Positions 63,343 through 64,000 of a DNA stretch of 64,000 nt are shown here, piece after piece. The notes under the pieces are model-generated. The model searched no databases. It saw only the letters and a list, made by a program, of their open reading frames with translations, and was not told where the DNA came from. The stretch covers positions 62,001-126,000 of the forward strand of contig JAUSJX010000097.1 in the NCBI GenBank assembly GCA_030647435.1. The letters are read 5' to 3'. A program made the translations under genes and the position numbers. This stretch comes from Candidatus Rokuibacteriota bacterium (lineage in GTDB: Bacteria; Methylomirabilota; Methylomirabilia; Rokubacteriales; CSP1-6). Position 1 is the first letter of the stretch. Every line of letters starts with the position of its first letter.

Positions 63343-63858
63343 TCAGTCCACTTCGATCTTCAGCGCATTGCAGATGCGCGTGGTGGCGTTGGCCGTGGCG
63401 ACCGTCACCGCCAGCTCGACCAGCTCCCGGTCCGAGAGGTGCTTCCGGAGATCCGCGTCCAGCGCCTCGTCCGTGGCGGCAGTGGCCGTGAGCTGCTCCG
63501 CATAGCGGATCACCAGATGCTCGAGCTCACTGTATTCGGCTGGATTGTCCCCATGGGTGGCCAGTCCTTCCATCTGCGCCTTCGTGAGCCCCACCCTCTG
63601 ACCGAGGGCGATGTGCAGGGCGACTCAGTAGTCGCAATGGTTGAGCTGGGCGGTCCTGAGATAGGCCAGCTCCCGCAGCTTGCGGTCCAGCCGCATCTCC
63701 TTGAGCGCCACGCTGAGCGTCACGTAGCCCTCGAGCGCTCGGGGGGAATGCGCCACCACTTTGTGGAAGTTCAAGACGTGCCCGACCACCTTCTGGGCCG
63801 TGTCGTACGGGTGATCCGTCGGAACCTGGTCACGCTCGAGAAACGGTACAAGCGCCAT
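63343..63858 (-). CDS. AhpD/carboxymuconolactone decarboxylase-family protein with in-frame TGA (candidate selenoprotein, CxxU)
   Basis: Two minus-strand frames join in one phase across a single TGA (63627-63625) into a 171-residue protein. The N-part ends RKLRELAYLRTAQLNHCDY, then TGA, then VALHIALGQRVGLTKAQMEGL. AhpD/CMD enzymes have a CxxC-xxx-H redox motif exactly here, so TGA replaces the second Cys: C-D-Y-U-V-A-L-H (Sec at residue 78). The rest (NPAEYSELEHLVIRYAEQLT, ELVELAVTVATANATTRICNAL) is intact and typical of the peroxidase-related branch. A SECIS-like hairpin follows the TGA. GGGGAGGA precedes the ATG. A DsrE-like gene lies upstream. The alternative is a nonsense mutation or sequencing error. 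Confidence 0.85.
63591..63611 (-). promoter_or_regulatory. SECIS-like hairpin of the CMD gene
   Basis: Minus-strand stem UCGCCCUC (63611-63604) with GAGGGUGG (63598-63591), 8 pairs including two G-U, and a 5-nt loop GGUCA (63603-63599). The loop starts 22 nt after the UGA. E. coli fdhF has its GGUCU loop 19 nt after the UGA, so position and loop sequence fit a bacterial SECIS. Confidence 0.6.
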
Positions 63859-63871
63859 GTCTTCCTCCCCC

Positions 63872-64000
63872 CTAAATCGAAATTACGTGTTTCGCCTGGT
63901 AGCACTTTTCGGCGAATTCATCTGACTTCATCCTCGTCGCCTTGCCTTTTATGTCGTTGTCGTCGACCTCACGGGCCGTCATGCAGGTGTCTCAGCAGTG
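63872..64000 (-). CDS. DsrE-like protein C-terminus with in-frame TGA (candidate selenoprotein, cut by window end)
   Basis: The minus strand from 64000 reads, through one TGA (63994-63992), H-C-U-D-T-C-M-T-A-R-E, then DDNDIKGKATRMKS, DEFAEKC and YQAKHVISI before a TAG at 63874-63872. The pattern CxxC-x-x-AR-x(n)-DI-x-G, then an amphipathic helix and a final VISI strand matches the C-terminus of DsrE/TusD-like proteins, which carry sulfur or thiol redox chemistry at this loop. The UxxC motif makes Sec plausible. It lies 13 bp before the CMD start and shares its direction. The assignment is from 42 residues only. Confidence 0.55.
63964..63978 (-). promoter_or_regulatory. SECIS-like hairpin of the DsrE-like gene
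   Basis: Minus-strand stem CGGCC (63978-63974) with GGUCG (63968-63964), one G-U pair, and a loop CGUGA (63973-63969) beginning 19 nt after the UGA. The G in the second loop position fits bacterial SECIS rules. The stem is short (5 bp). Confidence 0.45.

Follow-up and report, generated by a model that had tools for sequence, protein, structure and literature searches.

Two adjacent putative selenoprotein genes of the DsrE and CMD/AhpD types in a conserved three-gene unit of some Rokubacteria

Both DsrE-like proteins with UxxC and CMD/AhpD-like proteins with CxxU have counted among the selenoproteins since 2005 (PMC1088965, PMC2398784), and the Prx/SelW, Prx-like/AhpD-like, SAO and Tso operons each bring together at least two adjacent selenoprotein genes (PMC13188914). 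For many selenoprotein families, only single genes are known, and their functions are guesses. In A. vinosum DsrE, the active Cys78, the sulfur-binding residue of DsrE/TusD, carries persulfide sulfur and passes it on (PMC3397948). The phylum Methylomirabilota is reported to hold the largest bacterial selenoproteome predicted (PMC13188914), and our literature search on selenoproteins of Methylomirabilota and Rokubacteria returned only a 2026 review, which cites a Methylomirabilota MAG with 63 selenoproteins. Here we describe a locus with a DsrE-like and a CMD/AhpD-like gene side by side, each interrupted by an in-frame TGA. With a probability of roughly 85% on the sequence evidence, we regard both as real selenoprotein genes lying next to each other, at the end of a three-gene unit conserved in some Rokubacteria: gene integrity, Sec/Cys conservation, the Sec machinery, hairpins, selection and shared gene order all point this way.

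The analysed DNA (the window, 64,000 nucleotides) comprises bases 62001-126000 of a 155,297-bp contig (C97) from a 5.79 Mb genome that is 98% complete (G000). A DsrE-family gene on the minus strand crosses the window end, and the contig sequence past position 64000 completes its reading frame, which runs from an ATG at C97:126234, 234 bases beyond the window end and preceded by an AGGAG-type signal, to a TAG at window positions 63872-63874. The gene is intact, with 120 codons, no frameshifts and a single in-frame TGA; its 3' part, encoding residues 79-120 and the stop, lies within the window (63872..64000, minus strand). Residues 7-119 match Pfam DsrE (PF02635) with 52.4 bits against a cut-off of 22.7 (E=7e-14). 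The TGA (63992..63994, minus strand) is codon 81, in the context TIHC-U-DTCMTAR, placing U81 in an HCUDTC (UxxC) motif. The best NCBIfam match, TIGR03527 (YedF, selenium metabolism), stays below threshold at 15.8 bits against a cut-off of 110, and the protein has no TusA domain and falls outside that family. The first-pass annotation, made from the window alone, had taken the open frame leaving the window for a DsrE C-terminus with a TGA inside a C-U-D-T-C motif, 13 bp upstream of a CMD gene on the same strand, and the complete gene bears out each of these points.

The DsrE TAG is separated by 13 nt from the start (63858) of the CMD/AhpD-like gene (63343..63858, minus strand), which encodes 171 aa. 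Matches to PF02627 (52 bits against a cut-off of 23) and to the AhpD core model TIGR00778 (40.1 against 27.8 bits) assign the product to the AhpD-like/CMD proteins, while it scores below the curated NCBIfam cut-offs of NF053654 (YciW-related (seleno)protein; 68.7 of 310 bits) and TIGR01926 (peroxidase-related; 57.3 of 81.8 bits). Its in-frame TGA (63625..63627, minus strand) is codon 78, in the context HCDYUVALH, giving U78 in a CDYU (CxxU) site; a second TGA, at 63343-63345, is the ordinary stop. The DsrE and CMD domains both continue intact across the TGA. Several CMD relatives occur per genome. Two other CMD-domain genes of G000, L125 (contig C167) and L126 (C106), contain an in-frame TGA in the CxxU-type sites CPFU and CRYU, hinting at a larger set of AhpD-like selenoproteins in this genome. 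Relatives from Planctomycetota MAGs (L131 and L132, about 39% identity) have the TGA in CHYU, with no DsrE neighbour in the flanks examined.

To determine how the TGA codons are conserved, relatives were sought in 95 genomes of the phylum Methylomirabilota, 54 of which contain DsrE relatives. Profile alignment of the 65 distinct DsrE relatives covering the TGA column gave Sec in 47, Cys in 18 and no other residue; three partial matches stop short of the column and are not counted among the 65. Since all 65 relatives have Sec or Cys at this position, the occurrence of TGA at the thiol redox sites of two neighbouring genes is not due to chance, as the first-pass annotation had suspected. In the CMD column, 36 relatives have Sec and 6 have Cys; a single one, a distant Caballeronia protein, has Glu. 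The codons 3' of the TGA stay constrained, clearly in CMD and more noisily in DsrE. Between G000 and Candidatus Rokubacteria CSP1-6 (G070), the CMD gene gave a dS of 0.58 and a dN of 0.06 after the TGA, and 0.60 and 0.06 before it; for DsrE after the TGA, the same pair gave a dS of 0.25 and a dN of 0.21, a noisy estimate from 39 codons only. Position 84 of DsrE, after the TGA, is invariably Cys (48 distinct relatives) or Sec (17, UxxU), and is followed by a conserved ARGV-like tail.

In many DsrE relatives, chiefly of family f10/genus g33, a second in-frame TGA lies nine bases from the first (VUGGU, UxxU). The 17 distinct double-Sec proteins include L105:5853-6212 (minus strand), L064, L065, L061, L040 and L042, and the literature consulted gives DsrE selenoproteins as UxxC only. 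A candidate TusA gene behind one UxxU DsrE gene (L060) was discarded, being a mere in-frame CPxP string past the stop that is not repeated at other loci.

The genome encodes the full machinery for Sec insertion. Genes for selA (584 bits), selB (380 bits) and tRNA-Sec (71 bits) lie within 5 kb on contig 56, and selD (343 bits) is on contig 98, so that SelA, SelB, SelD and tRNA-Sec, the set expected of a bacterial selenoprotein producer, are all present. The selD match (G000:C98:94090-95046, L206) itself holds one in-frame TGA, and SelD of G000 may be a selenoprotein too. With selA in 83 of the 95 genomes, its co-occurrence with Sec-DsrE in the phylum carries no information. In two genomes with a TGA-bearing DsrE gene (G060 and G076), no selA was found, perhaps owing to incomplete assemblies.

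If the TGAs were ordinary stops, both genes would be truncated or decaying pseudogenes, and what is left of their frames would have stayed open by chance. TGA does serve as a stop in G000, including at the end of the CMD gene itself, but the column restricted to Sec and Cys, the constraint after the TGA (clear in CMD), the invariant Cys/Sec at residue 84 and the conserved tail of DsrE, and the complete Sec machinery led us to reject this explanation as very improbable. The same use of TGA bears on a reassignment of the codon to Trp or Cys in G000 with no role for selenium, which would account for in-frame TGAs in several genes. The second TGA of the CMD gene is a real stop and argues against it: in each of the four genomes sharing the unit described below, the CMD gene terminates at TGA, at the same place where Cys homologues end, and the upstream cyclase gene stops at TGA as well. 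With TGA stops inside the same operon, and selA, selB, selD and tRNA-Sec present, we reject reassignment and assign it a negligible likelihood. Selenocysteine insertion remains the preferred reading of both codons.

Consistent with selenocysteine insertion, a candidate bSECIS hairpin follows each TGA on the minus strand. In the DsrE gene, a CGGCC/GGTCG stem with additional outer pairs encloses CGTGA (63961..63981), and in the CMD gene, a stem surrounds a GGTCA loop (63591..63611). The loop lies approximately 20-26 nt after the UGA in both genes, matching the about equal distances given in the first-pass annotation, and each apical loop contains a G (GUG in DsrE, GGUCA in CMD), as expected of a SECIS element 3' of the UGA. 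Comparison of folding energy with shuffled sequences gave z = -2.85 for the CMD hairpin and z = -0.06 for the G000 DsrE hairpin, the latter no better than shuffled and with mismatches in its stem. The DsrE hairpin of G000 is unexceptional by itself, unlike that of CMD; what supports it is its conservation in other DsrE genes. In 13 DsrE relatives, the stem is paired in 77.6% of cells, a value that sliding the partner strand lowers to 49% at most; the GUG apical loop is kept in most of them, with paired changes at four positions. The corresponding values for the stem around GGUCA in CMD relatives are 93% and at most 58%, likewise with paired changes. The hairpin regions also encode conserved residues, and selection on the protein may explain part of this conservation.

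Directly upstream of the DsrE gene lies a gene for a 1,241-aa protein with a double zinc ribbon, a class III nucleotide cyclase, an AAA_16 ATPase and TPR repeats. The order cyclase-DsrE(Sec)-CMD(Sec) was found in four genera of one family, represented by G000, CSP1-6 (G070, LDXP01000085.1), Candidatus Rokuibacteriota AR22 (G056, QHSV01000147.1) and a fourth genome (G040), whose contig lacks all of the cyclase but its C-terminal part and in which the cyclase frame extends 8 nt into that of DsrE. The expectation that the DsrE and CMD genes would co-occur elsewhere is thus borne out by their lying side by side in four genera. The suggested selenium redox operon stands as a conserved adjacent pair, enlarged by the cyclase/AAA/TPR gene in front; its co-transcription is presumed from the arrangement. 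Zinc-ribbon/cyclase/AAA/TPR proteins (L009:1298-5020, minus strand) are very numerous paralogues in the phylum, and each genome has dozens of first-look candidates; the size of this family, like the several CMD relatives per genome, speaks against the functional reading proposed below. A scan of genome contigs with the DsrE protein alone retrieved no relatives, and one with the CMD alignment did; a plasmid search with DsrE gave no match.

Real selenoproteins could also act in separate pathways, with their adjacency inherited or coincidental. The unit occurs in four genomes only and is patchily distributed, being absent from other species of the same genera; other Sec-DsrE genes are not adjacent to a CMD gene of this type, and, conversely, the nearest other CMD relative (G082, 66% identity) has no DsrE and further cyclase relatives are also found without the unit. 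Against this, all four members found of the DsrE subgroup, from four genera and with 47-66% identity to the G000 DsrE, keep the three-gene order with tight spacing, and in one case the 8-nt overlap. We regard unrelated functions as unlikely, though far from negligible. The patchiness of the unit would reflect loss or transfer, and its functional coupling is suggested by few cases, namely the four genomes.

To gain insights into the possible function of the unit, the active sites of both selenoproteins were compared with those of characterized homologues. In CMD, the residues E63, C75, Y77, U78 and H82 match the AhpD proton relay Glu36, Cys48, Tyr50, Cys51 and His55 of Pseudomonas PA0269 in kind and spacing (PMC3141380), with Sec as the second Cys of CxxC, the peroxidatic position. 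An AF2 model of CMD (pLDDT 89) superposes on PA0269 with an rmsd of 1.4 Å. In DsrE, U81 aligns directly with the first Cys of the YchN LCKTC motif, and an AF2 model of low confidence (pLDDT 71) places the Sec at a strand end before a helix. From knowledge of the family and this low-confidence model, U81 may correspond to Cys78 of DsrE/TusD. A Foldseek search with the DsrE model retrieved DsrE-family structures, including DsrEFH, YchN and a putative sulfurtransferase DsrE.

On the basis of this anatomy, which agrees with the earlier description as a sulfur/selenium carrier plus a peroxidase-like protein, a selenol-based relay is proposed. In this scheme, the cyclase, DsrE and CMD genes would be co-transcribed, and CMD would reduce a peroxide- or persulfide-like substrate through selenolate attack by U78 and resolution by C75. 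DsrE would be the partner of CMD, accepting or delivering electrons or sulfane sulfur via U81/C84, and the cyclase/ATPase protein would sense or control the process. Such a relay tied to the cyclase/ATPase is plausible, at somewhat less than even odds, as an assignment of function from sequence and models. More tentatively still, a two-selenoprotein relay under a cyclase/AAA/TPR sensor might constitute a signal-controlled, selenium-dependent system for persulfide or peroxide, previously undescribed and restricted to some Rokubacteria.

The DsrE protein may instead be a true sulfur/selenium carrier, bearing persulfide or selenopersulfide on U81, with CMD as the releasing reductase, so that the two would not form a peroxide-detoxifying pair. 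The alignment of U81 with the first YchN Cys, the Foldseek matches, the sulfur borne by Cys78 in A. vinosum DsrE and the sub-threshold match to YedF all favour a carrier, whereas the conserved second Cys/Sec (UxxC, UxxU) fits a dithiol-type redox site better than a single-Cys carrier, the unit contains no TusE/DsrC/TusA partner gene, and the structural comparison depends on a model of pLDDT 71 only. We consider the carrier role a serious contender, if a doubtful one.

Gene callers that read TGA solely as a stop split the DsrE and CMD genes, and the unit is therefore easily overlooked in annotation. Our literature search, of incomplete coverage, found no description of a DsrE-CMD selenoprotein pair, and an earlier description is possible. 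The DsrE-like selenoproteins of the Sargasso Sea and GOS sets ('DsrE-like', 'DsrE 2'; PMC1088965, PMC2398784, PMC13188914) share the Pfam DsrE domain and the Sec in first position of UxxC. The subgroup described here differs in an extra Cys before the Sec (CUxxC) in three of its four members, in lacking a dedicated NCBIfam model, and in its fixed CMD and cyclase neighbourhood. E. coli YchN (1JX7), A. vinosum DsrE and E. coli TusD have the DsrE fold in common with it but no Sec; YchN has an active-site Cys aligned with the Sec and likewise a CxxC motif (CKTC). DsrE and TusD act in DsrEFH/TusBCD complexes, whereas the immediate neighbours here are the cyclase/AAA/TPR gene and CMD, with no E/F/H or DsrC/TusE gene, which sets the locus apart from the DsrEFH/TusBCD relay. 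The CMD protein shares its domain, the CxxU motif with peroxidatic Sec and the AhpD relay with the described CMD/AhpD-like selenoproteins (PMC1088965; TIGR01926, NF053654), but scores under the cut-offs of these named families; the AhpD-like PA0269 (2O4D, 2IJC), with the same relay, has Cys in place of Sec and a shorter N-terminus. The Prx/SelW, Prx-like/AhpD-like, SAO and Tso operons (PMC13188914) have other partners, and none in the literature consulted contains a DsrE-CMD pair or a cyclase/AAA/TPR gene. Both selenoprotein families were known already, and what appears to be new is the pairing of DsrE with CMD behind a cyclase/AAA/TPR gene. Two Sec proteins with complementary sites, UxxC of carrier type and CxxU of peroxidase type, together with a putative sensor, provide a testable partner hypothesis for both families.
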